Shown piece by piece: positions 7,155-64,000 of a stretch of DNA of 64,000 bases; within the stretch, counting starts at the first letter, position 1, and every line of letters begins with the position of its first letter. The translations under genes and the position numbers were made by a program. The stretch comes from Streptomyces sp. NBRC 109706 (GTDB lineage Bacteria; Actinomycetota; Actinomycetes; Streptomycetales; Streptomycetaceae): contig NZ_BBOM01000005.1 of NCBI RefSeq assembly GCF_000974485.1, positions 62,001-126,000 on the forward strand, written 5' to 3'. Below the pieces are notes generated by a model. That model was not told the DNA's origin. It made no database searches and saw only the letters and a program-made list of their open reading frames with translations.

Positions 7155-7174
7155 TCGCCCTCCATCCGATCAGG
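7145..7174. terminator. Possible bidirectional terminator
   Basis: CCTGATC (7145-7151) pairs with GATCAGG (7168-7174). The arms overlap the 3' ends of two convergent genes, so the match may be partly fortuitous. Confidence 0.3.
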
Positions 7175-12620: not shown

Positions 12621-13838
12621 TTGCACGACACCACAACCATGCTGATCGAACTGGGGGCCGTCGTCCTGGGCCTCGGCCTGGTGGGGCGACTCGCCGGCCG
12701 GCTCGGTCTCTCCCCCATCCCGCTCTATCTGTTGGCAGGCCTCGCCTTCGGCAGCGGCGGACTGCTCCCGTTGGACACCACCGAGGGCTTTATCGAGGTG
12801 GGCGCCGAGATCGGCGTCATCCTCCTGCTGCTGATGCTGGGCCTGGAGTACACCGCGCCCGAGCTGGTGGACAGCCTCAAGACGCAGTACCCGTCCGGGA
12901 TCGTCGACCTCGTCCTGAACGCGACCCCGGGGGCGCTGGTCGGCTTCCTGCTGGGCTGGGGCCCGGTGGGGGCGCTGACACTGGCCGGCGTCACCTATAT
13001 CTCCTCGTCCGGGGTGATCGCCAAGGTGCTCACCGACCTCAACCGGCTGGGCAACCGGGAGACCCCGGTGATCCTGGGCATCCTGGTGATCGAGGACCTG
13101 ACCATGGCGGTCTATCTCCCGGTGCTCTCCACGGTGTTGGCCGGCGTCGGACTGGCCAGCGGCAGCGTCACCCTGGCCATCGCCCTCGGCACCGCCAGCG
13201 TCGCGCTCTATGTCGCGCTGCGGCACGGCCGCTGGATCAGCAAGGCGGTCTCATCGGACAACGCGGAGATGCTGCTGCTGGTCGTGCTCGGGCTGACGCT
13301 GCTGGTCGCCGGCATCGCACAGCGCCTCCAGGTGTCGGCCGCGGTGGGCGCCTTCCTGGTCGGCATCGCCCTCTCCGGCGAGGTGGCACACACCACCCGC
13401 CGGCTCTTCATGCCGCTGCGGGACCTCTTCGCCGCGGTGTTCTTCGTGTTCTTCGGGCTCTCCACCACACCCAGCGACATACCGCCGGTGCTGGTGCCGG
13501 CGCTGGTCCTCGCCGTGGTGACCGCACTCACCAAGATCGCGACAGGCTGGTACGCGGCCCGCCGTGCGGGCATCGGGCCGCGCGGCAGGCTGCGGGCCGG
13601 CGGTGCGCTGGTGGCGCGGGGCGAGTTCTCCATCGTGATCGCGGGTCTGGCCACGGCCACCGAGCCCAGGGTCGCGCCGGTGGCCACCGCCTATGTGCTG
13701 ATCCTGGTCATCGTGGGCCCGCTGGCCGCCCGTTGGACCGAGCCGGTGGCCCGCAACCTGATGGAGCGGCGCGCGGCGCGGCAGGCCGAGGTGGCGCTGG
13801 TGCACGAGGCACGCCCGGCTACCGAGGCCGGTTCCTGA
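12621..13838 (+). CDS. CPA2-family cation/proton antiporter (KhtU/KefB-like)
   Basis: 405 residues from a TTG at 12621, with GAAAGG upstream; an ATG at 12639 is the alternative. About twelve hydrophobic segments make up a Na+/H+-exchanger domain with conserved patches LLLLMLGLEYTAPEL, YISSSGVIAKVL, and RGEFSIVIAGLA. The soluble RCK domain of full Kef proteins is absent, because it is supplied by the preceding gene. The pair probably exports K+ or NH4+ in exchange for protons under alkaline or osmotic stress. Confidence 0.9.
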   Translation: MHDTTTMLIELGAVVLGLGLVGRLAGRLGLSPIPLYLLAGLAFGSGGLLPLDTTEGFIEVGAEIGVILLLLMLGLEYTAPELVDSLKTQYPSGIVDLVLNATPGALVGFLLGWGPVGALTLAGVTYISSSGVIAKVLTDLNRLGNRETPVILGILVIEDLTMAVYLPVLSTVLAGVGLASGSVTLAIALGTASVALYVALRHGRWISKAVSSDNAEMLLLVVLGLTLLVAGIAQRLQVSAAVGAFLVGIALSGEVAHTTRRLFMPLRDLFAAVFFVFFGLSTTPSDIPPVLVPALVLAVVTALTKIATGWYAARRAGIGPRGRLRAGGALVARGEFSIVIAGLATATEPRVAPVATAYVLILVIVGPLAARWTEPVARNLMERRAARQAEVALVHEARPATEAGS

Positions 13839-13851
13839 CCCTCCCACGGCA

Positions 13852-13879
13852 CGGCCGGGCCGGCAGCACGGCCCGGCCG
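13852..13879. terminator. Bidirectional terminator between antiporter and ArsR-SRPBCC genes
   Basis: Perfect 10-bp stem CGGCCGGGCC (13852-13861) / GGCCCGGCCG (13870-13879), 8-nt loop, in the 48-nt gap between convergent genes. Confidence 0.65.
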
Positions 13880-13886
13880 ACCGCCG

Positions 13887-14693
13887 TCAGCCCTCGGCGA
13901 GCGCCAGCGTCTCCCCCGTCTCCAACAGCGTCTTGAGGTTGGAGACGATCACCGGCCAGCCCTGGCTGACCGAATCGCGCATCTCGCTGACGGGCCCGAA
14001 CCCGTCGTGCGTCACGGTCAGCTTGGTGGCCTCGCCCAGCGGCTCGATCTCGAAGGTGACCCGCGAGATCGGCTCCTGCCGCAGCTCCGCGAGGCGTTCC
14101 TCGCTCCAGCCGAACATCTCGGCCATCTCCGGCCGGTATCCGTGCCAGGTGTAGCTCAGCAACCGGCCGGGCTCGGCCGCCAACACCCGCTGTCCCCAGT
14201 CCTCGTAGGGCTGCGCGGGATCCATCCGCCAGCGCACCGGCGAGCCCGGGCCCCAGTCGGACTCGGGTCCTGTGTCCTCGAAATAGCGCCGGATGAAGTC
14301 GGGTTCGGTCAACGCCTGCCACAGCCGTTCGGGTGTGGTGCGGATGACGGTCACATAGACAAAGGCGGGGTGGGCCATCTCGTTCTCCAGGGTGTCGCGC
14401 AGCTCGGCCAACGCCCGGAGCCCCGGGCGCCGGTAGCGGCCGATCCAGCGTTCGGCGATGTCGTCGATGGGGACCGCGTTGAGGTAGTGCAACTTCTCCC
14501 GCCCACGCCGCACCGTGGTGACCAACAGCGCCGCCTCCAGCACCGCCAGATGCTTGGCCACCGCCTGCCTCGTCATCCCCAACCCCGCGCCCAGCTCCCG
14601 CAGGGTCTGGCCGTCGCGGGCCCGCAGCCGATCGAGCAACCGCCGGCGGCTGTGGTCGGCGAGCGCCTTGAACACCTCGTCCATGGCCTCCAT
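13887..14693 (-). CDS. ArsR HTH - SRPBCC (AHSA1) fusion protein
   Basis: 268 residues from ATG 14693 (14684 is a second ATG three codons later). Residues 1-95 form an ArsR-type winged helix (DEVFKALADHSRRRLLDRL, MTRQAVAKHLAVLEAALLV). Residues about 110-260 form an AHSA1/START-like SRPBCC domain (VYVTVIRTTPERLWQALTE). This fusion is a known actinomycete architecture in which the hydrophobic cavity may be the sensory part. A palindrome just upstream suggests autoregulation. It is divergent from the FGGY kinase, which may be its target. Confidence 0.88.
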   Translation of the reverse strand: MEAMDEVFKALADHSRRRLLDRLRARDGQTLRELGAGLGMTRQAVAKHLAVLEAALLVTTVRRGREKLHYLNAVPIDDIAERWIGRYRRPGLRALAELRDTLENEMAHPAFVYVTVIRTTPERLWQALTEPDFIRRYFEDTGPESDWGPGSPVRWRMDPAQPYEDWGQRVLAAEPGRLLSYTWHGYRPEMAEMFGWSEERLAELRQEPISRVTFEIEPLGEATKLTVTHDGFGPVSEMRDSVSQGWPVIVSNLKTLLETGETLALAEG

Positions 14694-14708
14694 CCTGACC
14701 CCGACCAT

Positions 14709-14728
14709 AGGCAACCAATCAGTTGCCT
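14709..14728. promoter_or_regulatory. Putative operator of the ArsR-SRPBCC gene
   Basis: AGGCAAC (14709-14715) and GTTGCCT (14722-14728), 6-nt spacer, a perfect 7-bp inverted repeat 16 nt upstream of the regulator start and 72 nt upstream of the divergent kinase. Typical size and position for an ArsR-family site. Confidence 0.55.
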
Positions 14729-14799
14729 GTCCAGCCGGCGTCGCGCTGTGGGAGGAACCCGCGTCGTTAGCCCGAAGGGATGAGGCATGATTCGGAAAC

Positions 14800-16224
14800 A
14801 TGGGAATCGTCGCCGGCCTCGACAGCTCGTCCGCCTACACCCGCATCGTCGTCTGTGACGCCACGACCGGGGAGATCCTGCGTCACGGCCACGCGGAGCA
14901 TCCGACCGGCGAGGCCGCGCCCGAGTCCTGGCTGCTGTCCCTCGGCGAAGCCGCCGCCGACGGCATGCTGGAGGACGTCGCGGCGATCGGCGTCTCCGCC
15001 CAACCGCACAGCGTCGTCCCCCTGGACGCCGACGGCGCCCCGGTGCGGCCCGCGTTGGCCGGCGCCGACGACCGGGCGCGGTCCGCCGCGTTCAGCCTGA
15101 TCGACGCGCTCGGCGGCAAGGCCGCCTGGGCCGAGGCCGTCGGCTCCGTCCCGCAGCCCACCCATCCGGTGGCCCAACTCCGCTGGCTGGCCAGGGAGGA
15201 CCCGGACGCCGCCCGGCGCACCACCACGGTGCTCCAGCCGCAGGACTGGCTCGTCTGGCAGCTGCTGGGCCGCCCCAACCGCTGGACCACCGACCGGGGC
15301 GGCGCCTCCGGCACCGGCTACTGGTCGGCCGTCTCCGGCAACTGGCGCCACGAGCTGGCCGAACTCGCCATCGGCCACCCCGTCAGCCTGCCCGAACTCC
15401 TCGGCCCCGCCGAGGCCGCCGGCCGCACCCCCGAGGGCCTGCTGATCTCCGCCGGCACCGGCGAGACCATGTCCGCCGCGTTCGGCCTCGGCGTCGGCAA
15501 GGGCGACGCCGTGGTCTCCCTCGGCGCCTCGGGATCCGTCTGCGCCGTCCACCACGAGGCGCTGACCGACCCCTCCGGCACCATCACCGGCTACGCCGAC
15601 GCCACCGGCCACCATCTGCCCGTGGTCCGCACGCTCAACGCGACCCGGGTGCTGCGCGGCGCCGCCGAACTGCTCGGCCGGGACCTCACCGAACTCTCCG
15701 GACTCGCCCTCACCTCCACCCCGGGCGCCCATGGCCTCGTCCTCCTCCCCTACCTCGCGGGCGAACGCACCCCCGACCTCCCGCACACCGCCGGCACGCT
15801 GGCCGGCCTGCGGCGGGAGAGCATGAAGCCGGAGCACCTGGCCAGGGCCGCCTTCGAAGGCATGCTCTGCGGCCTCGCCGACGCGGCGGAGGTGCTGCGC
15901 CGACGGGGCGTGGTCATCGAACGCGTCTTCCTGCTGGGCCAGACCGCGTCCCTTCCGGCCGTCAAGACGTTGGCGCCCGCGCTGCTCGGTGCCCGCGTGG
16001 TCGTCCCTGAACCCGCCGACTACACGGCGCTCGGCGCGGCCCGCCAGGCCGCGTGGGCCCAGGGCGTGACGGAGGGCCACCTCACCGCCGACGAGCCGCC
16101 GGCCTGGCCGGAGGCCAAGGGCGAGATCTTCGAACCCGACGAGGAGGAGAGCGCGGTCGGCTCCGCCGTACGCCAACAGTTCATCGCGGTACGCGACGAA
16201 ACCCACCCCGAGGCGATGGCCTAG
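14800..16224 (+). CDS. FGGY-family carbohydrate kinase (xylulokinase-like)
   Basis: 474 residues. N-terminal phosphate loop GLDSSSAYTRIVV, the catalytic-Asp region LAGADDRARS, and C-terminal ATPase motif SLGASGSVCAVHHEAL followed by GLVLLPYLAGERTPD are the marks of FGGY kinases closest to xylulokinase. It would phosphorylate a ketose or polyol with ATP in the cytoplasm. No isomerase or sugar transporter adjoins it, so the substrate is open. No strong Shine-Dalgarno precedes the ATG. It is divergent from an ArsR-SRPBCC gene 106 nt away. Confidence 0.87.
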   Translation: MGIVAGLDSSSAYTRIVVCDATTGEILRHGHAEHPTGEAAPESWLLSLGEAAADGMLEDVAAIGVSAQPHSVVPLDADGAPVRPALAGADDRARSAAFSLIDALGGKAAWAEAVGSVPQPTHPVAQLRWLAREDPDAARRTTTVLQPQDWLVWQLLGRPNRWTTDRGGASGTGYWSAVSGNWRHELAELAIGHPVSLPELLGPAEAAGRTPEGLLISAGTGETMSAAFGLGVGKGDAVVSLGASGSVCAVHHEALTDPSGTITGYADATGHHLPVVRTLNATRVLRGAAELLGRDLTELSGLALTSTPGAHGLVLLPYLAGERTPDLPHTAGTLAGLRRESMKPEHLARAAFEGMLCGLADAAEVLRRRGVVIERVFLLGQTASLPAVKTLAPALLGARVVVPEPADYTALGAARQAAWAQGVTEGHLTADEPPAWPEAKGEIFEPDEEESAVGSAVRQQFIAVRDETHPEAMA

Positions 16225-16249
16225 CCGGCCCGGCCGAACAGCCGCCCAC

Positions 16250-16275
16250 GGCCGGTGCCTCCGGCCGGTGCCTCC
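16250..16275. repeat. 13-bp tandem duplication
   Basis: GGCCGGTGCCTCC occurs twice in direct tandem (16250-16262, 16263-16275), just downstream of the kinase stop. Confidence 0.8.
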
Positions 16276-16353
16276 GGCGGCGAGGCGAGACCACGGCCGA
16301 CGGCCACGGCACTCGGCCACGGCGCAGGCGGCGGCCCGGACCGGCCGTCAGGG

Positions 16354-16690
16354 GCGAACGTTCCGGCCGGAACGGGGGCGCGCCCACTGACGGTAGGAAC
16401 GCCCCGCACCGCCGGCTCTGCCGGCCGTCAGGGCGAACGTTCCAGCCCGGACTGAAGCACGACCGCCCGCCGACCACCAACCGTAGAAACACCCCACACC
16501 GCCGGGGCGAACCGCAGGCCCTGCCAGCCGTCAAAGCGAACGTTCCAGCCCGGACAGAGGCACGACCGCCCGCCGACCACCAACCGTAGAAACACCCCAC
16601 ACCGCCGGGGCGAACCGCAGGCCCTGCCAGCCGTCAAAGCGAACGTTCCAGCCCGGACTGAAGCACGACCGCCCGCCGGCAGGCCCTGCC
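16354..16690. repeat. 103-bp tandem repeats in the kinase-hrdA spacer
   Basis: The marker GCGAACGTTCC recurs at 16433, 16536 and 16639, a period of exactly 103 bp, with nearly identical sequence in between; a diverged 79-bp unit starts at 16354. Each unit contains the palindrome GAACGTTC. The repeats fill the centre of a 639-bp gap between convergent genes (16225-16863), in which I see no gene. The last unit is cut at about 16680. Confidence 0.9.
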
Positions 16691-16810
16691 GCCACCCCCG
16701 CGCCACTGGCGAACCGGCCCCGGGCCGGCCACTCTCCAACGCTCGGCCGCAAGCCCAGACGGCGGGAACGGTGCCGTTGACCGACACCGGGCGGCGGCGT
16801 GGCCCTGCCC

Positions 16811-53199: not shown

Positions 53200-53233
53200 C
53201 CGCCGCCCCGGGCAACGTCCCCCGGCCGGTCAG
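53196..53233. terminator. Possible terminator between convergent genes
   Basis: CTGACCG (53196-53202) pairs with CGGTCAG (53227-53233), a 24-nt loop that is itself GC-rich; the arms overlap both stop codons. Confidence 0.35.
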
Positions 53234-54612
53234 GCTTTGTCGAGGCCGGCGAGGCGCAGGAGGAGGGATTTGACGTCGGTGGCGGGGACCTCCTCGCCCG
53301 TGAGGGCCTCGGGGTCGGAGCAGATCAGCACCGGCTGGTCGCGGCGGTCGGTGGGGAGACGGCCGTGGCTGCCGCGGATCTGGGCGCCGTCCAGCGGGAT
53401 GACGTTCATCCGGTAGCGCAGGCCGACCTTCTTTCGCACCAGGGCGGCGCCGGCGCGGGCCTTGACCAGGCGGTCCTCCGGGTTGAAGAAGAGTTCGGCC
53501 GGGTCGTAGCCGGGCTTGCGGTGGATCTCGACCGTGGGCGCGAAGTCGGGGGCCACCGCGTCGTCGAGCCAGTAGTAGTAGGTGAACCAGGAGTCGGGAT
53601 CGGCGACGGCGACCAGATCGCCGGCGCGGGGGTGGTCGAGACCGTGGGCGGCCTTGCCCTCGTCGTCGAGGAGTTCGGCGATGCCGGGGAGGTCGGCCAG
53701 GGCCTCGCGGGCGGGGGCCAGATCCTCGGGGCGGCGGACATAGACATGCGCGATCTGGTGGTCGGCGACGGCGAAGGCGCGGGAGACCCAGGGGTCCAGA
53801 TACTCCATGCCGGCCTGGGTGTAGACCTCCAGCAGGCCCGCCTCGCGCAGCCGCCGGTTGATGTGGATCTGGCGGCTGACGGAGGTGATGCCGTACTCGG
53901 AGAGGGCCAGCACGGTGGCGTCCCGCTCGCGGGCGGCGTCCAGCAGCGGGCCCAGTTCGCCGTCGAGTTCGGCGGCGGCGGCGCGGGCCTGGGGGGAGTC
54001 GGGGCCGTAGCGCTGCAGGTCGTAGTCCAGATGCGGCAGGTAGACCAGGGTGAGGTCGGGGTCGCGGGTGGTGAGCACCCGGCGCGCGGCATGTGCGATC
54101 CACCGCGAGGAGTCGATGGCCGCCGTCGGCCCCCAGTAGGTGAAGAGGGGGAACTCGCCCAGCCGCGACGTGAGTTCGTCGTGCAGCTCGGGCGGCCTGG
54201 TGTAGCAGTCGGGCTCCTTCTTGCCGTCGGCGTGGTAGATGGGCCGGGGCGTCACCGTGTAGTCGGTGTCGGCGCCCATGGCGTACCACCAGCAGATGTT
54301 GGCCACGGTGTAGTCCGGGTCGACCTTCCGGGCCGCGTCCCACACCTTCTCGCCGCCGACCAGCGCGTTGTGCTGGCGCCAGAGCAGCACGTCGCCCAGC
54401 TCGCGGAAGTACCAGCCGTTGCCGACGATGCCGTGGCCCGAGGGCAGCTCGCCGGTGAGGAACGTGGCCTGGGCCGAGCAGGTGACGGCGGGCAGCACGG
54501 TGCCGAGGGGGGCCTGGGAGCCCCGGGTGGCGAGCGACTTCAGGGTCGGCATGTGGTCGAGCAGGGCCGGGGTGAGGCCCACGACATCGATGACCACCAG
54601 ACGGCGGGTCAT
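53230..54612 (-). CDS. Alkaline-phosphatase-superfamily (type I phosphodiesterase/nucleotide pyrophosphatase-like) enzyme of the Ebo cluster
   Basis: 460 residues. N-terminal metal ligand in VVIDVVGLTPALLDHMP, likely Thr nucleophile in LPAVTCSAQATFLTGELPSG, then YLPHLDYDLQRYG and LSEYGITSV supply further metal ligands. No signal peptide, so it acts in the cytoplasm. It would hydrolyse a phospho-monoester or diester of the pathway product. Last gene of the seven-gene operon, 19 nt after the EboE gene. A comparable phosphatase accompanies ebo loci in other bacteria. Confidence 0.85.
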   Translation of the reverse strand: MTRRLVVIDVVGLTPALLDHMPTLKSLATRGSQAPLGTVLPAVTCSAQATFLTGELPSGHGIVGNGWYFRELGDVLLWRQHNALVGGEKVWDAARKVDPDYTVANICWWYAMGADTDYTVTPRPIYHADGKKEPDCYTRPPELHDELTSRLGEFPLFTYWGPTAAIDSSRWIAHAARRVLTTRDPDLTLVYLPHLDYDLQRYGPDSPQARAAAAELDGELGPLLDAARERDATVLALSEYGITSVSRQIHINRRLREAGLLEVYTQAGMEYLDPWVSRAFAVADHQIAHVYVRRPEDLAPAREALADLPGIAELLDDEGKAAHGLDHPRAGDLVAVADPDSWFTYYYWLDDAVAPDFAPTVEIHRKPGYDPAELFFNPEDRLVKARAGAALVRKKVGLRYRMNVIPLDGAQIRGSHGRLPTDRRDQPVLICSDPEALTGEEVPATDVKSLLLRLAGLDKA

Positions 54613-54631
54613 GGCAGCGGCTCCTTTCGGT

Positions 54632-55816
54632 TCACGGCAGCTCTTTGAGGCCGAGGGCGGTCAACAGGTCGCGGGCCAGGGCGAGTTCGGCGGCGATGCC
54701 GTCGGCGAGCTGGTCGGCGTCGGTGGGGCGGAGCGCGGGCGGCAGCACCTGCCAGGTGTAGGTCTCCACCTCCAGGTGGTGGGTGAGCGGCCGGTCGCCG
54801 CCGACCAGCCGGGCGAGCGCGCGTTCCAGCACGGGAAGGGTGGTGGCCAGCGGCGCGGCCGGCTTCGCGTGCAGCGGGATGTGGTGGTGGACCCGCCACG
54901 GTCCCGTGGCGGGCAGCGGATGGACGCCGTCCAGCGCCTCGTCCAGATCGTCGCGGGCGGCGACGGTGCCGTCGGCGCCCCGTTCCCTGGTCTGGTGGAG
55001 GAACCGGTCCTCGACGAAGTCGGCGAGCGCGGCGCGCACTTCGGGCCGGTCCGGATGCTCGGCGTGCAGCGCGGCGGAGAGCTGCGCCTTGACGACGGGC
55101 ACCCGCTGCCCGGTGAGCCGGTCAAGCGCCTCGTCGGGGTCCTCGAAGGCGGTGGCCAGATGGCAGGTGTCCAGGCAGACGCCGACCCGGTGGGCGGGGG
55201 GCGCGTCGGGGCCGGTGAGGACCCGGACGGCCTGGGTCGTGGTCTCGACGACGCAGCCCGGCTCGGGCTCCAGGGCCAGCCGCACCGAACGCCCGGTGCG
55301 CTCCGCCAGCTGGTCCAACTCGCCGGCCAGCCGGCCCAGTTGGCTCATGGCACGGCCGGCGTCGGTGGCGTCGAACGGGGTGCGCCAGGCCAGCGGCAGG
55401 GTGGAGATGGTGCCGTCGGCGATGTCGTCGGGGAGCAGCCCGGCGAGCAGGGTGGCCAGTTGGCGGGTGTGTTCGCGGCGCTGGTCGGTGGTCCAGTCCG
55501 GTTGGTAGACGCGGTACTTGACCCTGGCGCCGCCGAACCCCCGGTAGGGGAAGCCGTTGAGGGTGACGACCTCAAGGCCCTCGCGGCGCAGCGCGTCGGC
55601 GAGGGTGCGGCGGGCGGCGAGGTCGTCGCCGAGCGCGGCGACCACGTCGGCGGCCAGCCACAGGCCGATGCCGAGGCGTTCACGGCCGAGCCGGCGGCGC
55701 ACCGGGGCGCAGTGTTCGGAGAGTTGGGCGAGCACCCCGTCCAGGGTCTCGGCGGGGTGCACGTTGGTGCAGTAGGCGAGGTGGACCAACTCGCCGCTGG
55801 GGTGGCGGAAACGCAC
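54632..55816 (-). CDS. eboE: EboE-type TIM-barrel protein (sugar phosphate isomerase/epimerase fold)
   Basis: 394 residues from GTG 55816, preceded by GAGGAC. N-terminal VHLAYCTNVHPAETLDGVL is the hallmark of EboE (metabolite traffic protein) domains. The xylose-isomerase-like barrel shows metal-ligand candidates LALEPEPGCVVE, VGVCLDTCHLATAF and VHHHIPLHAKP. The reaction is unknown. It starts 10 nt after the TatD-like gene. Confidence 0.87.
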   Translation of the reverse strand: MRFRHPSGELVHLAYCTNVHPAETLDGVLAQLSEHCAPVRRRLGRERLGIGLWLAADVVAALGDDLAARRTLADALRREGLEVVTLNGFPYRGFGGARVKYRVYQPDWTTDQRREHTRQLATLLAGLLPDDIADGTISTLPLAWRTPFDATDAGRAMSQLGRLAGELDQLAERTGRSVRLALEPEPGCVVETTTQAVRVLTGPDAPPAHRVGVCLDTCHLATAFEDPDEALDRLTGQRVPVVKAQLSAALHAEHPDRPEVRAALADFVEDRFLHQTRERGADGTVAARDDLDEALDGVHPLPATGPWRVHHHIPLHAKPAAPLATTLPVLERALARLVGGDRPLTHHLEVETYTWQVLPPALRPTDADQLADGIAAELALARDLLTALGLKELP

Positions 55817-55826
55817 GGTTGTCCTC

Positions 55827-56684
55827 TCAGCCGTCGATGGGGGTGCCGCGGCGCAGCACATTGCCGGCGTAGTCGTCGGCTTCGGGGCGTTCGCCGAGGT
55901 CGAGCCGTCCGGAGAGGGAGTAGAACGCGACCGGGTTGCGCCACAGCACGAGGTCGACGGTGTCCTCGTCGAAGCCGTCGGCGAGCATGGCGTCGGCGAC
56001 CTTGCGGGTCTTCAGCGGATCGCTGTTGCCCCAGTCGGCCGCCGAGTTGACCAGCACCTTCTCCGGGCCGTACTCGCGCAGCAGCCGGACCATCCGCTCC
56101 TCGTCCATCTTGGTGTCCGGATAGACGGAGAAGCCCAGCCAACAGCCGCTGTCCTTGGCGGCCTTGATCGTGGTCTCGTTGAGGTGGTCGAGCAGCACCC
56201 GCTCGGTGGGCAGCGCCGACTCGCGGACCACGTCCACGGTGCGGGTGACGCCGGCGGCCTTGTCCCGGTGCGGGGTGTGCACCAGCGCCGGCAGCTCGTG
56301 GTCGACGGCGAGCTGCAGCTGAGCGGCGAGCGCGGCGTCCTCGGCCGGGGTCATGGAGTCGTAGCCGATCTCGCCGACGGCGACCACGCTGTCCTTGCGC
56401 AGATAGCGGTCCAGCTCGGCCAACACCGGGACGCAGCGCGGGTCGTTGGCCTCCTTGGGGTTGAGGGCCAGCGCGCAGTGGTGGGCGATGTCGTACTGGG
56501 AGGCGCGGTAGGGCTCCCAGCCGAGGAGCGCGTCGAAGTAGTCGAGGAAGCTGCCGACGGAGGTGCGGGGCTGGCCGAGCCAGAACGAGGGCTCGACCAG
56601 GGCCCGGACGCCGGCGTCCCGCATGGCCCGGTAGTCGTCCGTGGTGCGGGAGGTCATATGGATATGCGGGTCGAAGATGCGCAT
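55827..56684 (-). CDS. eboB: TatD-family metal-dependent hydrolase (EboB-like)
   Basis: 285 residues. Metal-site motifs DPHIHMTSR (H-x-H), VVAVGEIGYDSM (Glu), LVHTPHRDK, LLDHLNE and NSAADWGNS trace the TatD amidohydrolase fold, although the barrel is diverged from nuclease TatD. The ATG shares one base with the EboA stop (TGATG), so the two are translationally coupled. In ebo loci this protein is conserved but its substrate is unknown. Confidence 0.87.
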   Translation of the reverse strand: MRIFDPHIHMTSRTTDDYRAMRDAGVRALVEPSFWLGQPRTSVGSFLDYFDALLGWEPYRASQYDIAHHCALALNPKEANDPRCVPVLAELDRYLRKDSVVAVGEIGYDSMTPAEDAALAAQLQLAVDHELPALVHTPHRDKAAGVTRTVDVVRESALPTERVLLDHLNETTIKAAKDSGCWLGFSVYPDTKMDEERMVRLLREYGPEKVLVNSAADWGNSDPLKTRKVADAMLADGFDEDTVDLVLWRNPVAFYSLSGRLDLGERPEADDYAGNVLRRGTPIDG

Positions 56685-57298
56685 CAGGACTCCTGGGGGT
56701 GCGGCGCGAGGGCGAGGGCGCGCGCGACATCGTCGGGTACGGGGCGGCCGGCCGCCCGGCGTTCGGCGGCGAAGTCGTCGAGCATCCGGGCGAGTTCGGC
56801 GTCGGCGCGGTCGGCGAGTCCGGCGACGGCGGTGAGCGGCACCCCGGTGAAGACGCATTTGAGGACGGCGTGCCGCCACTGGTGCGCTTCGAGATGGGCG
56901 GCGGCGTAGGGGCCGACGGCGGCCGCGATCAGCCGGTTGTCGTTGGCGCGCAGCGCGTCCTCGACGAGGGGGACGGCGTCGGCCCCGACCGGCAGCTCCG
57001 GCAGGGCGAGCAGCACGGCGCGGCGTTCGGCGGCGTCGCCCTGCTGGTAGAGGCGGTTGACGGTGGCCGCGTCGGGGGCGGCGGCGGCCAGCAGCAGGAT
57101 CCGGGCGGCGTCGGCCGCCGGCAGGCCGGTGCCGGGCAGCGGGCCCCGGCCGACGCGGCGGGCCGCGACGGCGAACGCCGCCTCCCAGCCCGGGCGGGCG
57201 GCGGGGTCGAGCGCGCCGGTCAGCCACGCGTCGGCCGGCGGGGCGAGATGGTCGGCGAGGGCGGCGCGCAGGGTGTCGAGCGTGTTGGGGGATGGCAT
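56684..57298 (-). CDS. eboA: EboA-domain protein
   Basis: 204 residues from ATG 57298. All-helical and alanine-rich; LPELPVGADAVPLVEDALRAN, the core NRLIAAAVGPYAAAHL and HQWRHAVLKCVFTGVPL are the conserved EboA features. Its molecular function is unknown. Start and end both show TGATG overlaps with neighbours. Confidence 0.85.
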   Translation of the reverse strand: MPSPNTLDTLRAALADHLAPPADAWLTGALDPAARPGWEAAFAVAARRVGRGPLPGTGLPAADAARILLLAAAAPDAATVNRLYQQGDAAERRAVLLALPELPVGADAVPLVEDALRANDNRLIAAAVGPYAAAHLEAHQWRHAVLKCVFTGVPLTAVAGLADRADAELARMLDDFAAERRAAGRPVPDDVARALALAPHPQES

Positions 57299-58170
57299 CA
57301 GACGACCTCCGCTCGGGCGGTTCCCCAGGCGCTCCGGAGGAACGCGTGGGATTCTGCGGCCAGTTGCGGGCCGGCGTGCGAGTGGCGGGGCAGTTCGACG
57401 GAGACCAGGCCCGCGTAGCCGGTGGCGTCCAGCGCGGCGAGCACCGGCGGGAAGTCGATCTCGCCGTCGCCGAACGGAAGATGCTCGTGGACGCCGCGCC
57501 GCATGTCCTCGATCTGCACATGCGCCAGCCAGGGCCCGGCGGCGGTGACGGTTGCGGCGACCGGCAGCGGCTCCAGGCACTGGCAGTGGCCGATGTCCAG
57601 GGTGAGGCGCAGCACCTCGGGGCCGCCCAGCGCCTGGCGCAGCCGGTGGAAGCCGGCGAGATCCTGGAGCAGATGGCCCGGTTCCGGCTCGACGGCGAGC
57701 GGGACGCCGGCCGCCTCGGCCGCCTCCACCAGCGGGGTGAACGCGTCGGCCAGCCGCGCCCAGGCCACCTCGTCCGGGGTGTCGGGCGGCCGGTGGCCGC
57801 TGAAGCAGTGCAGGGCGGTGGCGCCCAGGTCGGCGGCGATCCTGGTGGCTTCGGTGAGCAGGCCGATCCGGCGGGCGCGGGCGGCCGGGTCGGGATCGAG
57901 CAGGCTGGGCCCGTGTTTGGCGCGCGGGTCGAGAACGTAGCGGGCGCCGGTCTCCACGGCGACGGCCAGGCCGAGTTGGTCGAGCCGCTTGGCGACCTCG
58001 GCGGTGCGGCGGGCCAACTCGGGGGCGAGCGGGTCGAGATGCATATGGTCGAGGGTGAGCGCGACCCCCTGGTAGCCGAGGTCGGCGAGCAGCGCGAGGG
58101 CGTCGGCCAGCCGCAGGTCGGTGAGGCCGTTGGTGCCGTAGGCGAGCAGCGGCCCTGGTGGGGGGCTCAT
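57298..58170 (-). CDS. Sugar phosphate isomerase/epimerase (AP-endonuclease-2-like TIM barrel)
   Basis: 290 residues. Barrel motifs LLADLGYQGVALTLDHMHL, VAVETGARYVLDP, GVPLAVEPEPGHLL, LRLTLDIGHCQCLEP, VQIEDMRRGVHEHLPFGDGE and SVELPRHSH place divalent-metal ligands (Glu, Asp, His, Glu) as in myo-inosose and xylose isomerase relatives. Next to an inositol-phosphate synthase, an inosose- or cyclitol-type substrate is attractive but unproven. Overlaps the prenyltransferase stop by 4 nt. Confidence 0.87.
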   Translation of the reverse strand: MSPPPGPLLAYGTNGLTDLRLADALALLADLGYQGVALTLDHMHLDPLAPELARRTAEVAKRLDQLGLAVAVETGARYVLDPRAKHGPSLLDPDPAARARRIGLLTEATRIAADLGATALHCFSGHRPPDTPDEVAWARLADAFTPLVEAAEAAGVPLAVEPEPGHLLQDLAGFHRLRQALGGPEVLRLTLDIGHCQCLEPLPVAATVTAAGPWLAHVQIEDMRRGVHEHLPFGDGEIDFPPVLAALDATGYAGLVSVELPRHSHAGPQLAAESHAFLRSAWGTARAEVV

Positions 58171-59027
58171 GTGGGGGTCACCTTCCTCGACAGTCGGCGG
58201 GTGGCGGCCAGCAGGGTCAGCAGCACGGGGACGGAGCGGCGGGCGCCGGCCCTGGCGGCGAGCCCGGCCTGGAGCGGCACCAGCGCGGCCAGGCCGTCGA
58301 TCACGCCCTGTTTGGTGTGGTCGCCGGTGGGGTGCCGGGCGGCGCGGGCCAACGCCGGGGCGGCGGTGAGCAGATAGCCGGCGGCGCAGCCCTGGGCGGT
58401 GCCGGCGTCCGCGCCGGGGCGGGCGACGGCGGCGGCGACGCCGGCCGTGGTGGCGAGCGCGGCCAGCGGCGCGGCGCGCGAACCGCCGTCCACCTCGTGT
58501 CGGGAGACATGGGTGACGGCGGTGGTGTGGGCGGCGAGCAGCGCGGCGGGGGGCAGCGCGGCGCGCGGCACCCGGCCGCCGGCGGCCGAGCCCATCAGCA
58601 GGTCGAGGCCCCGGGCGGCGCCCATGGCGACCGGCCCGGCGGGGGTGTGCTTGAGCCCCAGGTCATAGGCCCAGACGGTGGCCGCCAAGGCGGTGGCGGT
58701 GGCGAGTTGGGCCCGGTTGGCGGCGCCGGCCAGGGCGAGCCCGGCGGCGGTGAGCCCCGCGGCGGCGCCGAAGGCGGCGGCGGGGTGGATCCGGCCCGAG
58801 GGGATCGGGCGGTGCGGCCGGTCGCGCGCGTCCTCGGCGCGGTCGGCCCAGTCGTTGAGCGCCATGCCGGCCCAGTAGAGGCAGACGGAGCTGCCCAGGG
58901 CGAGGGCGGCGTCGCGGCGGGGCACCCCGCCGGCGGCGGCGGCGCCGGCCAGGGTGTCGCCGGGCACGGTCAGCGCGGCCGGCCCGCGCACCAGCTCCAG
59001 CCAGGCGCGGGCCCTGCCGCCGGTCAC
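58167..59027 (-). CDS. eboC: UbiA-like prenyltransferase (EboC / SCO3242-type)
   Basis: 286 residues from GTG 59027. Polytopic, about eight hydrophobic helices. The first Asp-rich prenyl-diphosphate motif is NDWADRAEDARDRPHRP; the second is weaker. UbiA enzymes transfer prenyl groups to a polar acceptor at the membrane. Its start overlaps the upstream synthase stop by 4 nt (GTGA). Confidence 0.87.
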   Translation of the reverse strand: MTGGRARAWLELVRGPAALTVPGDTLAGAAAAGGVPRRDAALALGSSVCLYWAGMALNDWADRAEDARDRPHRPIPSGRIHPAAAFGAAAGLTAAGLALAGAANRAQLATATALAATVWAYDLGLKHTPAGPVAMGAARGLDLLMGSAAGGRVPRAALPPAALLAAHTTAVTHVSRHEVDGGSRAAPLAALATTAGVAAAVARPGADAGTAQGCAAGYLLTAAPALARAARHPTGDHTKQGVIDGLAALVPLQAGLAARAGARRSVPVLLTLLAATRRLSRKVTPT

Positions 59028-60145
59028 GATCGGCCAGCCAGCCGCTCGGCGAGCGCGAGCAGCTCGCGGTACTGCTCGGCCAGCCCCGGCGGTGGGGTGT
59101 CGGGGTCCTTGAAGAAGAAGCCGAGCCCCGGCACCGGACCGGAGATCCCCGACGCGTGGGCGCGGGCGACCAGTCGGGCGAGGTCGAGCACCAGGGGTGC
59201 GGCCAGTGCGGAGTCGCAGCCCTGCCAGATGGTCTGGAGCACCATCCGGGTGCCGAGGAAACCGTCGAAGGCTATGTGGTCCCAGGCGGTCTTCCAGTCG
59301 CCGAGCGCCGGCACATGGTCGATATGGGTGGTGCCCTCGGGGGTTTCGCCGAGGTTGTCGGCCAACGCCCTGGCCTTGCCGGCGTTCTTGGCGGCCGCCG
59401 CCTGCGGATCGGCGAGCGTGGCGCCGTCGCCGCCGCCCAGCAGGTTGCTGCCGGACCAGGCGCGTACGTTCAGCGCGCGCTGCGCGAACATCGGGGCGAG
59501 CACGGCGCGGAGCAGCGTCTGCCCCGTCTTGCCGTCGCGGCCGGCGTGCGGAAGGCCGGCGCGCGCGGCGCGTTCGGCGAGGCCGGGGGTGTGCATCCCG
59601 CTGGCGGGGGTGAAGTTGACATAGGAGCAGCCGGCCTCGATGGCCGCCGTCGCGTAGAGCGAGCTGGCGGGGGCGCGGGGGGCGTCGTCCGCCGGCACCG
59701 GCTCGGTGCTGGCCAGATGGACGACCACGGTGCGGGCGAGGTCGTTGCGGCGTTGGAAGGTGGTGATGTCGGCGGCGAAGGCGGCGATCAGCTCCTGGTC
59801 GTCGCGGGGATCGTCCGACTGGGGGCCGCCGGGCCGGATCTCGGCCTCGGCGCGGATGAGGGCGTCGGCGACGGCGACGGGCAGCCCGGGAGGCAACACC
59901 CCCGCCTCGGCGAGCTGTTCGGCGCGTTTCGGGAGAGGGGTGGGGGCGGTGTCGTGGCCGCCGAACACCAGGTGGTCCAGCGAGGGCAGTGCCGCCTCCG
60001 CGAACTCGGGCCCGGCGGTGACGAGGCCGGTGAAGGGGTGGAGGCCGGCGGCGAGGGCGGCATGGCCGGCGACCGTGGTGGTGGCGACCGAACCACGGGC
60101 GCCGATCAGCCAGACTCCGACGCGCTCCTGGGGTGCTGTTGTCAT
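59024..60145 (-). CDS. Inositol-3-phosphate synthase (myo-inositol-phosphate synthase)
   Basis: 373 residues from ATG 60145. NAD-binding GVWLIGARGSVATTTVAG, the conserved VNFTPASGM, DGKTGQTLLRAVLAPMF, SGSNLLGGGDG, and TAWDHIAFDGFLGTRM are MIPS hallmarks, including the catalytic Lys region. It cyclises glucose-6-phosphate to inositol-1-phosphate. First gene of the seven-gene operon, which gives it a specialised rather than a housekeeping context. Only a weak Shine-Dalgarno precedes it. Confidence 0.93.
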   Translation of the reverse strand: MTTAPQERVGVWLIGARGSVATTTVAGHAALAAGLHPFTGLVTAGPEFAEAALPSLDHLVFGGHDTAPTPLPKRAEQLAEAGVLPPGLPVAVADALIRAEAEIRPGGPQSDDPRDDQELIAAFAADITTFQRRNDLARTVVVHLASTEPVPADDAPRAPASSLYATAAIEAGCSYVNFTPASGMHTPGLAERAARAGLPHAGRDGKTGQTLLRAVLAPMFAQRALNVRAWSGSNLLGGGDGATLADPQAAAAKNAGKARALADNLGETPEGTTHIDHVPALGDWKTAWDHIAFDGFLGTRMVLQTIWQGCDSALAAPLVLDLARLVARAHASGISGPVPGLGFFFKDPDTPPPGLAEQYRELLALAERLAGRS

Positions 60146-60360: not shown

Positions 60361-62322
60361 TTAGTCGGTCAGCTCCTGGATCCGGATGTCGCGGAACTGC
60401 ACGGTGTCGGCGTCGCCGTGGTTCTGCAGACCGATGTGACCTGCAAGGCTACGGCCCTCGTGGGTGTTGGTGAAGTCGTTGATCAGCACCTCGTTGAGGA
60501 AGATCTGGAGACGGTCGCCCTCGACCCGCAGCTCGTAGGTGTTCCACTCGCCGTTGGGGTTGAGCGCGGCGTCCCTGGCCTCGATGTCCGCCGACTGGAA
60601 GCCGTAGACGGCGCCGGTGGTGCGGTCGGGCTCGTCGGTGTCGTCGATCTGGATCTCGAAGCCCTGGTTGACGGCGTCCCAGGGGTCGTCGCTCGCCGGG
60701 GCGCCCACGAAGATCCCGGAGTTGGAGTCGCCCTCCTGGCGCCAGTCCAGCACCAGCGAGTAGTCGGTGTAGGCCGCGGCCTCGTAGTAGAAGAGGCCCA
60801 TCCCGCCGACGCTGGTGAGGGTGCCCTCCTCCTCGTCGAGCGCGAACTCACCGGGACCGGCCTGCGTCCAGCCCTCGGTGCCCGAGCCGTCGAAGATGGC
60901 GGTGTAGTCGGCGGCCGGGGTCAGTTCCTCGACGCTGATGTCGCGGAACTGGACGGTGTCGGCGTCGCCGTGGTTCTGGATCCCGATATGACCGGCCAGG
61001 GTGCGGGCCGGGTCGGTGTTGGTGAAGTCGTTGATCAGGGTGTCGTTGAGGAAGATCTGGAGACGGTCGCCCTCGACCCGCAACTCGTAGGTGTTCCACT
61101 CGCCGTTGGGGTTGAGCGCGGCGTCCCTGGCCTCGATGTCCGCCGACTGGAAGCCGTAGACGGCGCCGGTGGTGCGGTCGGGCTCGTCGGTGTCGTCGAT
61201 CTGGATCTCGTAGCCCTGGTTGACGGCGTCCATCGGGTCGTCGCTGACCGGGGCGCCCACGAAGATCCCGGAGTTGGAGTCACCCTCCTGGCGCCAGTCC
61301 AGCACCAGCGAGAAGTCGGTGTAGGCCGCGGCCTCGTAGTAGAAGAGGCCCATCCCGCCGACGCTGGTGAGGGTGCCCTCCTCCTCGTCGAGCACGAACT
61401 CACCGGGACCGGCCTGCGTCCAGCCCTCGGTGCCCGAGCCGTCGAAGATCGGGGTGCGGCCCGGGTCCGGGTCCTCGCCGCCGTCGACGGAGCAGTCGGC
61501 GTCGGTCTGGCCGGCGGCGTACTGGATGCCGCCCAGCAGGTGCTGCCGGAAGTCCTCCTCGGCGAAGGACTCGATGGTGTGGCCGCCGCCGGTGTAGAAC
61601 GCGAGGCCGCCGTCGTACTCCTTGCACCAGGCGATCGGATGGTCGCCGTTCATGTTGCCGCCCTCGTAGCTGGACTCGTCGAGCGAGGCCAGCACGCGGG
61701 AGGTTTCCCTGGGGTTGGTGCGGTAGTTGTACCACTCGTCGGTCCGGTCCCAGGTGTCGCCCAGGTGGGCGGTCGCCGGGTGGTCGTGGTCCTCGACGTT
61801 GATCGTGGCTTCCTGGATGTGCGGGTGCGAGTCGAAGAGCGCGCCGGCCAGGCCGTCGTACCACGCCCAGTCGTACTCGGTGTCGGCCGCCGCGTGCACG
61901 CCGACATAGCCGCCGCCGGACTGGATGTAGCTCTCGAACGCGGCCTGTTGGCCGTCGTCGAGCACATCGCCCGTGGTGGAGAGGAAGATCACCGCCTCGT
62001 ACTGGGCGAGGTTCTCCTCGGTGAAGGTGCCGGAGTCCTCGGTGGCGGTCACCGAGAAGTCGTTCTCCGCGCCGAGTTGGGTGATGGTCTCGATGCCGGT
62101 CTCGATCGAGTCGTGCCGGAATCCCGCGGTCTTGGAGAAGACCAGCACGTCGAACGGGTCGGCCGCGATCGACGTTCCGCCGTCGGCCGAGGGGCCGGAG
62201 TCGGTGGACGCGCTGGCGGCGACGGCGGGCAGCGCGGCGGCGGCGAGCACACCGCCGGCCGCGAGATAGCCGATGCGTCGCATACGGGTGGTGGGGGTGG
62301 TGCGGGTGGTCACTTTGCGCAT
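60361..62322 (-). CDS. Secreted ThuA protein with two 3-keto-disaccharide-hydrolase (DUF1080) domains
   Basis: 653 residues from ATG 62322, with GAGGAG at good spacing. Signal peptide to about residue 37. ThuA domain next (DVLVFSKTAGFRHDSIETGI, GYVGVHAAADTEYDWAWYD, YTGGGHTIESF). Then two DUF1080 lectin-like domains, each opening with IFDGSGTEGWTQAGPGEF and containing LDWRQEGDSNSGIFVGAP; period 184 residues, about 95% identical. ThuA and DUF1080 families are linked to 3-keto-glycoside turnover. It starts 5 nt after the sugar dehydrogenase stop. Confidence 0.9.
   Translation of the reverse strand: MRKVTTRTTPTTRMRRIGYLAAGGVLAAAALPAVAASASTDSGPSADGGTSIAADPFDVLVFSKTAGFRHDSIETGIETITQLGAENDFSVTATEDSGTFTEENLAQYEAVIFLSTTGDVLDDGQQAAFESYIQSGGGYVGVHAAADTEYDWAWYDGLAGALFDSHPHIQEATINVEDHDHPATAHLGDTWDRTDEWYNYRTNPRETSRVLASLDESSYEGGNMNGDHPIAWCKEYDGGLAFYTGGGHTIESFAEEDFRQHLLGGIQYAAGQTDADCSVDGGEDPDPGRTPIFDGSGTEGWTQAGPGEFVLDEEEGTLTSVGGMGLFYYEAAAYTDFSLVLDWRQEGDSNSGIFVGAPVSDDPMDAVNQGYEIQIDDTDEPDRTTGAVYGFQSADIEARDAALNPNGEWNTYELRVEGDRLQIFLNDTLINDFTNTDPARTLAGHIGIQNHGDADTVQFRDISVEELTPAADYTAIFDGSGTEGWTQAGPGEFALDEEEGTLTSVGGMGLFYYEAAAYTDYSLVLDWRQEGDSNSGIFVGAPASDDPWDAVNQGFEIQIDDTDEPDRTTGAVYGFQSADIEARDAALNPNGEWNTYELRVEGDRLQIFLNEVLINDFTNTHEGRSLAGHIGLQNHGDADTVQFRDIRIQELTD
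60370..61452. repeat. 552-bp internal duplication in the ThuA-DUF1080 gene
   Basis: 60922-61452 and 60370-60900 encode the two DUF1080 domains; stretches of well over 100 nt are identical. Recent duplication or gene conversion. Confidence 0.9.
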
Positions 62323-62327
62323 GGTGA

Positions 62328-64000
62328 TCACTCCTCACTGCCGGTGCTGAAGGTGAAGTCGTCCAGGTTGTACGAGCCTCCCGTGAAGGCGAGGTAGAGC
62401 GTCACGGTCCCGGACGGCTGGTTGGACAGCGTGGTGCTGACGTCCTCGTAGGTCTCCCAGCCGCCGGTGTCACCCACCTCGACGGTGCCGAGCAGTTCGC
62501 CGTCGGGGGCGTCCGCGCGGACCTCGATGGTGCCGCCGCCGCCCTGGGAGGCGACCCGTGCGGTGAACTCCTGGGCGTTGCCCAGCTGGTAGGGCTCGAA
62601 GGCGATCCAGTCGCCCGCGTCGATGAACGCGACCGCGTTGCCGCCGTGGGCCCCGGCCTGGCTCTCCACCTCGACGCCGGAGGAATCGCTGAAGTGCTCG
62701 GCCTGGCGCTGCTTGGTCTGGGAGACGACCTGGTCGCTCCCGGTCAGCGGCGGCGCGTCACCGGCGCCCGAGTCGGTGTACTCGGCGTTCCAGACCCCGA
62801 AGATGTTGGCGTTGGGGTCGTGTTCACCGTCGGCCAGCGTCTGCAGCGTGCCGGAGCAGCCGGTGGTGGAGGTCTGCGGGTGGCCGTGCGAGTCGTGGCC
62901 CAGGATGAAGGTCACGGTGACGTTGTCGCAGTTGATCTCCGCGTCCTCGGCGTCGGTGACCTCCACCTCGAAGGGCACCGCGTCGCCGAAGTCGACCAGG
63001 GCGCCGTTGCCCGGCAGCACGATGTTGACCTGGGGCGCGCTGTTGCCGACCGCGATCTGGACTGAGGCGCCGCCGGTGGCCCCGGAGGGGTTGGTCACCG
63101 TCAGTTCGGCGGTGTAGGTGCCGGTCTCCGTGTAGGTGTGGGTCGGGTTCGCCTCGTCCGAGGTGGCGCCGTCGCCGAAGTCCCACGCGTAGCTGAGGTC
63201 TGCGCCGCCGGGGTCGCGGCTGCCCTCGGAGCTGAAGTTGACCTCCAGCGGGGCGGGTCCTGAGTTCACGTCGGCCGATGCCTCGGCGATGGGCGACTGG
63301 ACGCCGCTGGTGTACTCGATGCGGTACAGGGCGCTGTTCTCGTCGCCGGAGAACCAGCCCAGGCCGTAGTCGAGCACATAGAGCGCGCCGTCCGGGCCGA
63401 AGGCGCTGTCCATGACCTGGGTGCCTTCCCAGAGGAAGTCATGGATGCCGTCGACGTTCCCGCTGCCGTCCATCTCGACGGCTTTGATCCACTGGCGGCC
63501 GAACTCGGTGGCGAAGAACGTGCCGTCCATGGACTCGGGGAACTTCACGGCCGAGTCGAGGTTCGGGTCGTAGTTGTAGACCGGTCCCGCCATGGGCGAT
63601 TCGGAGCCGCCGCCGAACTCCGGCACCGAGTTGCCGTCGTAGGGGATCCAGGCGGGCTGGGCCGGCGGCACCTCGGTCAGGCCCGTGTTGTTGCGCGAGT
63701 CGTTGACCGGGGCCGAGCAGTCGAAGGCGCTGCCGGAGCTGCCGCTGCCGAAGTCGTAGTCGATATAGGGCTGGTTGTCGCCGATGCAGTAGGGCCAGCC
63801 GAAGTTGCCGGGCTCGGTGATCCGGTTGAACTCCACCAGTCCGCCGGGCCCTCGGCCCGGGTCGGCGGTGCCGGCGTCGGGGCCGTAGTCGCCGACGTAG
63901 ACGACGCCGGTGGCCTTGTCCACGCTCATCCGGAACGGGTTGCGGAAGCCCATCGCGTAGATCTCGTCGCGGGCGCCTTCGGTGCCGGGCGCGAAGAGGT
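62328..64000 (-). CDS. Secreted PQQ-type sugar dehydrogenase with PKD and CBM6 domains (partial)
   Basis: The frame continues beyond the right edge, so the N-terminus is missing; about 556 residues are visible. First the C-terminal part of a glucose/sorbosone-dehydrogenase propeller (MGFRNPFRMSVDKATG, VGDYGPDAG, GNFGWPYCIGDNQPY). Then a PKD domain (LSYAWDFGDGATSDE), an Ig-like segment with two cysteines, and a CBM6 module (IDAGDWIAFEPYQLG, YLAFTGGSYNLDDF). It would oxidise a sugar outside the cell. Operonic with the ThuA gene. Confidence 0.9.
   Translation of the reverse strand, partial: LFAPGTEGARDEIYAMGFRNPFRMSVDKATGVVYVGDYGPDAGTADPGRGPGGLVEFNRITEPGNFGWPYCIGDNQPYIDYDFGSGSSGSAFDCSAPVNDSRNNTGLTEVPPAQPAWIPYDGNSVPEFGGGSESPMAGPVYNYDPNLDSAVKFPESMDGTFFATEFGRQWIKAVEMDGSGNVDGIHDFLWEGTQVMDSAFGPDGALYVLDYGLGWFSGDENSALYRIEYTSGVQSPIAEASADVNSGPAPLEVNFSSEGSRDPGGADLSYAWDFGDGATSDEANPTHTYTETGTYTAELTVTNPSGATGGASVQIAVGNSAPQVNIVLPGNGALVDFGDAVPFEVEVTDAEDAEINCDNVTVTFILGHDSHGHPQTSTTGCSGTLQTLADGEHDPNANIFGVWNAEYTDSGAGDAPPLTGSDQVVSQTKQRQAEHFSDSSGVEVESQAGAHGGNAVAFIDAGDWIAFEPYQLGNAQEFTARVASQGGGGTIEVRADAPDGELLGTVEVGDTGGWETYEDVSTTLSNQPSGTVTLYLAFTGGSYNLDDFTFSTGSEE

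Follow-up and report, generated by a model that had tools for sequence, protein, structure and literature searches.

What forms the carbocycle of an ebo pathway when EboD is missing from its operon? The question is raised by positions 53230-60145, minus strand, of a 64,000-nucleotide stretch of Streptomyces sp. NBRC 109706 (contig NZ_BBOM01000005.1, positions 62,001 to 126,000; the whole stretch is called the window below), where a seven-gene ebo operon carries an enzyme of the inositol-phosphate synthase family, MIPS. The eboA-F operon of eustigmatophyte plastids, Bacteroidota, and cyanobacteria has in common with it an EboA domain, an EboB-like TatD hydrolase, a UbiA-type prenyltransferase, EboE, an EboF-like phosphodiesterase, and a carbocycle-forming enzyme, whereas the window is without EboD and has MIPS plus a TIM-barrel gene, a prenyltransferase of the SCO3242 family, and the order MIPS-C-TIM-A-B-E-F (accessible parts of PMC5133447). 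The carbocycle from EboD was proposed in the same source as the central building block of an end product that was unknown in 2016. In the loci and genomes searched here, MIPS and EboD were found to be strictly exclusive of each other. The exchange of one for the other is the new element, the parts themselves being already annotated (NCBI models name the EboA-domain, EboE, and SCO3242-family proteins), and the operon is not a canonical eboA-F operon, as EboD is absent and the EboC cut-off is not reached. No description of MIPS in an ebo cluster, or of a cyclase exchange, was found in the open-licence literature, the result lists of which were partly covered. The seven genes are as follows, with lengths in amino acids (aa).

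59024..60145, minus strand: divergent MIPS-family cyclase, 373 aa (PF07994 120 bits, PF01658 102 bits)
58167..59027, minus strand: UbiA-type membrane prenyltransferase of the SCO3242 family, GTG start, 286 aa (NF045897 341 bits)
57298..58170, minus strand: xylose-isomerase-like TIM-barrel isomerase/epimerase, partner of MIPS, 290 aa (PF01261 154 bits)
56684..57298, minus strand: EboA, helical repeat protein, 204 aa (NF035938 170 bits)
55827..56684, minus strand: EboB-like TatD-family metal-dependent hydrolase, 285 aa (PF01026 51 bits)
54632..55816, minus strand: EboE, TIM-barrel protein, GTG start taken from the sequence, 394 aa (NF035939 424 bits)
53230..54612, minus strand: EboF-like type I phosphodiesterase/nucleotide pyrophosphatase, 460 aa (PF01663 230 bits)

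The initial annotation, made from the letters and their open reading frames, had described seven genes on one strand with overlaps of 1 to 4 nucleotides (nt) and gaps of 10 and 19 nt, and its coordinates and junctions are exact, the overlaps from MIPS onwards being 4, 4, 1, and 1 nt and the two gaps following towards EboF. The order MIPS-UbiA-TIM-EboA-EboB-EboE-EboF was found again in 28 of the 29 actinobacterial MIPS-type loci (window excluded), so that the operon arrangement is not a product of chance. Among these 28, the MIPS of L047 is a fragment, the UbiA gene of L056 lies in two pieces, and L061 has an extra TIM match past EboF; the 29th locus, L052, is missing the TIM gene only. TIM and EboA share one reading frame in only one of 28 MIPS loci having both genes. 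Actinobacteria are named once in the accessible parts of PMC5133447, for an EboA fused to an isomerase in various Actinobacteria, and the word inositol was not found in its main text.

That EboD is lacking was claimed at the outset and proved correct: none lies in the locus, no EboD-like match at an E value of 1e-45 was returned for the genome, and the single gene of the dehydroquinate (DHQ) synthase family in it (PF01761) is on another contig. The proposed tabulation of EboD against MIPS in actinomycete EboE genomes was carried out over 396 evenly drawn actinobacterial genomes, with operon-type MIPS scored from at most five candidates per genome within a limit of E 1e-30 and EboD called at E 1e-45 or better. 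EboE passed its cut-off in 26 genomes, including 16 of the 20 from the window's genus (its own among them). Operon-type MIPS, at least 51% identical to that of the window over the best piece, is present in 25 of these 26 and in none of the other 370, 54 of which have only MIPS matches of at most 45% identity. EboD was called in one genome of the 396, G301, which is the sole EboE genome without operon-type MIPS. An EboD hidden elsewhere in the MIPS-type actinobacterial genomes was considered and rejected on these counts, there being no overlap between the two enzymes.

The same survey bears on the suggestion that MIPS is a mere supplier of inositol, for mycothiol or phosphatidylinositol, which entered the operon by happenstance. 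Actinomycetes require inositol, and the MIPS family makes inositol phosphate. The genome, however, has another MIPS-family gene on a different contig, a canonical mycothiol-type Ino1 scoring 719 bits against a cut-off of 638, which marks the operon copy as dedicated; the operon protein itself scores 49 bits with the mycothiol-type Ino1 model TIGR03450 and does not reach that cut-off of 638. With operon-type MIPS confined to genomes with over-cut-off EboE and its place in the gene order fixed, housekeeping supply of inositol was ruled out as its role, and happenstance is considered extremely improbable.

The cyclases were further tabulated across 118 loci around EboE (window excluded), comprising 10 of 48 plasmid records with EboE, 28 actinobacterial loci from the 26 genomes of the draw, and 80 GTDB-contig loci, which were taken from the top of a ranking of at least 580 relatives by their similarity to the Gemmatirosa EboE and so do not form a random sample. 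A core locus was defined by EboE, EboB, EboF, and a UbiA-type gene, and 87 of the 118 qualify; the 31 GTDB-contig loci without the full core, which were excluded, comprise 13 with EboD, 18 with neither cyclase, and none with MIPS. When MIPS is counted at 60 bits or more, a threshold that takes in the fragment of L047, the 87 core loci divide into 30 with MIPS (5 plasmid, 25 actinobacterial), 52 with EboD (5 plasmid, 1 actinobacterial, 46 GTDB-contig), 5 with neither, and none with both. Routine co-occurrence of EboD and MIPS, which the initial annotation had named as the finding that would speak against it, was therefore encountered in 0 of 87 core loci and 0 of 396 genomes. The L047 fragment (14779-15048, genome G335) scores 72 bits, and a copy 72% identical to the MIPS of the window lies on another contig. 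The five core loci with neither cyclase are L042, L068, L082, L098, and L128: the genome of L128 encodes an EboD at another site, the L068 cluster is damaged, and L042 (G123:C1:1889000-1908900) shares its genome with another ebo copy, L045, which has MIPS. Upstream of UbiA, L042 carries a FAD-dependent oxidoreductase and a gene of the inositol monophosphatase family (12701-16808; PF00459, 194 bits). Virus-borne copies were not found: viral contigs scanned with EboE yielded 16 pattern matches, none of them a relative.

The cyclase is not exchanged alone. Kin of the TIM-barrel gene, at 150 bits or more, occur in 29 of the 30 MIPS-type core loci as against 0 of the 52 EboD-type core loci, and the earlier claim that MIPS stands in the place of EboD, which the exclusivity upholds, is accordingly corrected to a replacement by a pair. 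In the window, this gene belongs to AP_endonuc_2, the family under which it is listed above, and is weakly related to sugar epimerases and to inosose dehydratase. As EboD and MIPS interchange while the rest stays constant, the ring is indicated as the central building block, and this is the strongest evidence for it known to us. The exchange of two unrelated carbocycle-forming enzymes would place a cyclitol at the centre of the ebo product and limit the candidates to structures reachable from both cyclases.

The operon MIPS exceeds the cut-offs of both of its Pfam families (NAD_binding_5, PF07994, and Inos-1-P_synth, PF01658). Its nearest solved structure is an archaeal MIPS, 1u1i, at 194 bits, with 1gr0 at 51 bits and 6k96 at 55 bits. 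Residues K253, K257, K285, and K346 align with K274, K278, K306, and K367 of 1u1i, which we take to be catalytic, and lysine is kept at all four positions in 39 of 39 aligned MIPS rows; deposited variants of the 1u1i protein carry alanine at two of the four in the same alignments. The motif AKNAGK at residues 252-257 is found in 16 of the 39 rows, the window included and mostly in proteins of its genus, whose counterparts in the remaining rows still have a serine or threonine ahead of at least one of the two active-site lysines. Presumably, 6k96, a MIPS-family synthase of a five-membered cyclitol phosphate, comes from aristeromycin biosynthesis and exemplifies a family member diverted to secondary metabolism; it is much further from the operon enzyme than is 1u1i, and we know of no synthase of its type with ebo genes.

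Six of the seven families were recognised by Pfam, EboA being matched by the NCBIfam EboA models alone. Significant profile matches for EboA and EboE, on which the first reading depended, were obtained in both cases (NF035938 EboA_domain, 170 bits against a cut-off of 50; NF035939 TIM_EboE, 424 against 250), while EboA scored 69 bits with the full-length EboA_family model, under its cut-off of 320. The prenyltransferase had been called UbiA-like; the UbiA type stands (Pfam UbiA, 84 bits), and the family is to be corrected to a sister one, SCO3242_trans (NF045897, cut-off 260), as the protein scores 130 bits with the EboC model NF035940 and misses its cut-off of 250. The UbiA proteins of the EboD-type clusters L036 and L037 likewise fall under that cut-off. 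The only solved relative of the prenyltransferase within E 0.001 is digeranylgeranylglyceryl phosphate (DGGGP) synthase, 6m31, at 25 bits, and its sequence contains a first aspartate motif, NDWADRAED. EboB is so labelled from its TatD_DNase family and its position, no EboB-specific model being among the matches in the libraries searched; its best solved relative is AF_1765 (3guw, 95 bits). Kin of EboF, a member of Phosphodiest, occur in 32 of 32 other actinobacterial loci examined, at 55 to 74% identity.

No solved structure related by sequence was found for EboA, nor for EboE at E 0.1. The predicted structure of EboA, from 42 homologues, is nearly all helix, with a mean predicted local distance difference test score (pLDDT) of 95.5 and a predicted template modelling score (pTM) of 0.90; its invariant residues are mostly charged (E91, R117, K147, R164, E179, R180, and R185, with F150 and A183 besides). 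Foldseek gave no match to the model at E 0.001 or better, and the best VIA-align result, to HEAT-type repeats, has a Z of 10.3 over 184 residues at a root-mean-square deviation of 5.2 Å, a modelled likeness too weak to indicate more than a generic helical-repeat arrangement, and no function is read from it. A scaffold role for EboA is suggested in the accessible parts of PMC6282210, with which the helical-repeat model agrees without proving it.

MIPS-type ebo clusters are not confined to actinobacteria and also occur in Gemmatimonadota. EboE was found in 5 of 395 Gemmatimonadota genomes (one gene being split), of which the MIPS-type loci are L216, L219, and L218, the last being, by its content, the Gemmatirosa plasmid L035; L217 has EboE alone. 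In these MIPS-type clusters, the genes run EboB-EboF-UbiA-MIPS-TIM and EboE is divergent; no EboA was detected in them, and a search of the Gemmatirosa plasmid, its chromosome apart, returned no DHQ-synthase gene. Trees were built for EboE (thinning at 78% identity left 91 of 118 rows) and, quickly, for UbiA (70 of 97 rows were left at 72%, two short rows having been removed beforehand), together with a careful EboE tree of 37 rows, namely all 19 thinned MIPS rows and 18 hand-picked EboD rows. In the careful tree, the MIPS-type L035 and L216 group with the EboD-type L073 (support 98/94), the next to join them being the Rokubacteria EboD-type locus L072 (97/94), and the MIPS-type EboE rows form a single clade in 0 of 200 bootstrap trees. 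The quick UbiA tree likewise unites L035, L216, and L073 (98). In the MIPS tree, the operon enzymes of Gemmatimonadota and actinobacteria lie apart on long branches. The fifth of the EboE genomes, G396, a metagenome-assembled genome (MAG), is the source of L073, and its EboD is 55% identical to that of Mycetohabitans. These groupings of Gemmatimonadota EboE and UbiA, in which the same partners appear with either cyclase, speak for an exchange of the cyclase inside a single pathway. The idea that the prenyltransferase type strictly follows the cyclase type was rejected, as L073 has EboD with a UbiA of the Gemmatimonadota type.

A rival reading is parallel recruitment, in which the MIPS-type operon makes another end product than the EboD-type, and the genes in common provide general tools for a prenylated, exported metabolite whose identity the cyclase decides. 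MIPS and EboD are unrelated folds that by family use different sugar phosphates, MIPS is accompanied by the extra TIM-barrel gene, the actinobacterial prenyltransferases are a clade and family of their own (SCO3242 as against EboC), and so is the actinobacterial MIPS-type EboE a clade of its own (100/100). On the other side, the Gemmatimonadota UbiA clade and EboE clade each mix the cyclase types, which points to a downstream pathway in common; the EboD-type member of both is L073, a single 4.6-kb MAG contig with UbiA at its end. Parallel recruitment is, on this balance, somewhat unlikely, although it is the alternative to be taken most seriously.

The explanation preferred here, to which we would assign an even chance, is that the MIPS-type ebo operon is the pathway core shared with cyanobacteria, Bacteroidota, and Pseudomonadota (EboA, EboB, a UbiA-type prenyltransferase, EboE, and EboF), with EboD replaced by MIPS and a dedicated TIM-barrel isomerase, and that its product is a prenylated cyclitol which acts outside the cytoplasm. 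A prenylated or transported metabolite derived from a cyclitol had also been suggested in the initial annotation. MIPS would cyclise glucose 6-phosphate, or a compound close to it, giving a cyclitol phosphate, after which the TIM-barrel isomerase might adjust the ring as IolE or IolI would, with a keto or epimeric cyclitol as the substrate. The SCO3242-type prenyltransferase (its nearest solved relative uses a polyol phosphate as the prenyl acceptor) could then attach a prenyl chain at the membrane, with EboB, EboE, and EboF trimming or rearranging the head group or acting on its phosphate and EboA, as a helical-repeat protein, possibly holding the enzymes together. The resulting prenylated cyclitol would serve a process outside the cytoplasm together with the propeller oxidoreductases encoded alongside, which are probably exported. 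In all likelihood, the MIPS-type operon works like the canonical one. The natural exchange of cyclases moves the ebo problem into Streptomyces, in which gene deletion and metabolomics are routine.

The neighbours in question lie upstream of MIPS, the first of them at a distance of 215 nt:

60361..62331, minus strand: ThuA and 3-keto-disaccharide-hydrolase domains, in two stretches (PF06283 272 bits, PF06439 279 bits)
62328..64000, minus strand: glucose/sorbosone-dehydrogenase-like propeller that also carries PKD and CBM6 domains and starts past the window end (in-window part: CBM_6 121, PKD_4 76, GSDH 29 bits)

In the whole genome, the GSDH match to the propeller gene is 119 bits, at G000:C22:125783-126601. 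Among 32 MIPS-type loci (window excluded), ThuA was found at 16, a dehydrogenase-like propeller at 19 (weak in L033), and an additional TIM-barrel protein at 16, several sequences of which begin with a twin-arginine-like leader. The dehydrogenase-like neighbours are probably exported, to go by their family and leader-like starts. A profile derived from the propeller matched at 18 of 29 actinobacterial MIPS-type loci, a plain count in which some loci are close kin, and at 12 of 25 Pseudomonadota EboD-type loci, where about 0.42 would be expected (Poisson tail 4e-14, with loci treated as independent and the phylum singled out after the hits were seen). The expectation was computed by hand at 0.91 per Mb, from 46 matches over 50.3 Mb in 11 genomes having such a neighbour; at the same rate, about 1.1 would be expected for the 12 found across all 65 EboD-type loci (1.197 Mb). 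The ThuA and dehydrogenase families are not rare in the window genome, with nine matches each. In L060 and L061, the ThuA/propeller pair lies on the opposite side of the operon from that in the window's genus, so that shared descent of one gene order is not the whole explanation. Dehydrogenase-like neighbours in two phyla are a first lead to the place where the product acts.

A propeller is not the only such neighbour. In L032, on a Streptomyces camelliae plasmid, a gene of the ScyD/ScyE family lies directly upstream of MIPS (3212-4414; 243 bits against a cut-off of 80), and three cyanobacterial clusters have more weakly matching ScyD/ScyE relatives in their vicinity. Downstream of the ebo cluster, L032 also has genes for an aromatic prenyltransferase and a multicopper oxidase. 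The Ketogulonicigenium cluster L036 has two Gfo/Idh/MocA oxidoreductases and a sugar isomerase of its own attached (5768-7814, 14205-15116). In Nostoc punctiforme, the ebo cluster shares the core genes and has periplasmic ScyE as its partner; it is EboD-type, with EboD nearby in the opposite direction, whereas the window is MIPS-type (PMC6282210, as far as accessible). That cyanobacterial cluster is needed for the sunscreen pigment scytonemin, ScyE being proposed to complete the pigment after ebo-dependent export (same source).

Such findings invite the proposal that the cluster is an export device, its UbiA-like protein acting as, or building, a carrier for other metabolites and its cyclase supplying the head group only. 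The NCBI model names EboE a 'metabolite traffic protein', and dehydrogenase-like propellers or a ScyD/ScyE-family protein adjoin many clusters; the conserved order of the actinobacterial MIPS-type loci nevertheless contains no transporter gene, and the enzyme families are biosynthetic. The proposal overlaps with the preferred explanation and is not exclusive of it, and is itself regarded as improbable. In a bolder extension, the two ebo types would yield a single class of prenylated cyclitol, its ring supplied by either of two unrelated cyclases, that acts outside the cytoplasm as a carrier or redox partner for propeller- or ScyE-type oxidoreductases, the partner being ScyE in cyanobacteria and glucose/sorbosone-dehydrogenase-like enzymes in Pseudomonadota and actinomycetes. 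This we hold to be quite unlikely; were it true, evolution would conserve the lipid-cyclitol and not the route to it.

Several observations weigh against a shared pathway ending in a prenylated cyclitol, as preferred above. A single clade of MIPS-type EboE was not rejected by the approximately unbiased (AU) test (p 0.278), and the exchange may therefore have occurred once, with later transfer. The propeller profile matched at 0 of 3 Gemmatimonadota MIPS-type loci and at 0 of 40 other EboD-type loci, 19 of them cyanobacterial, so that the propellers are not a general ebo partner. L042 has no cyclase nearby, and the MAG loci L082 and L098 have none near the core cluster and no EboD in their genome bins, where MIPS was not searched for. 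The replacement, in AKNAGK, of two serines that precede active-site lysines may mean that the substrate in the window's genus has shifted from glucose 6-phosphate. MIPS retains phosphate. EboD-family cyclases, by contrast, release it (PMC5133447, in its accessible parts), and the products should thus differ unless other steps compensate. Lastly, UbiA-297, a prenyltransferase of the EboC type and the only Ebo enzyme with an assay in the literature consulted, transferred farnesyl to 6 of the 14 aromatic acceptors tried, quinoline acids best of all; the panel is described as aromatic, without a cyclitol, which leaves an aromatic acceptor as the only kind with experimental support (PMC9235831, as far as accessible).

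In L082 (9766-15086) and L098 (9986-15215), compact clusters in the order E-C-A-B-F are followed by an opposite-strand gene that, as read by eye, resembles anmK. A third cyclase was looked for by eye among the flanking frames of both loci and none was recognised, the family libraries not having been searched.

The UbiA-297 operon of Flavobacteria and Saccharomonospora places an EboC-type prenyltransferase in an ebo operon, an actinobacterial genus included, and is described with EboD, inositol being mentioned nowhere in the accessible text, while the window has MIPS (PMC9235831). In S. coelicolor, SCO3242, the namesake of the prenyltransferase family, is listed as a 'putative transferase' and SCO3243, the next in number, as a 'myo-inositol phosphate synthase', a pairing like that of the window; both are counted in the calcium-dependent antibiotic (CDA) cluster, SCO3210-SCO3249, and ebo goes unmentioned in the accessible parts of that source (PMC3610822). 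The initial annotation had placed a similar set, around SCO3237-SCO3243, at the border of CDA, which these entries bear out in part, for SCO3242, SCO3243, and the cluster.

Five loci, L112, L117, L095, L104, and L138, from Terrabacter, Nanopelagicales, and Pseudomonadota, hold EboE relatives with no other ebo gene within the available DNA of at most 10 kb per side. These solitary relatives form one clade, and EboE may hence be used outside ebo as well.

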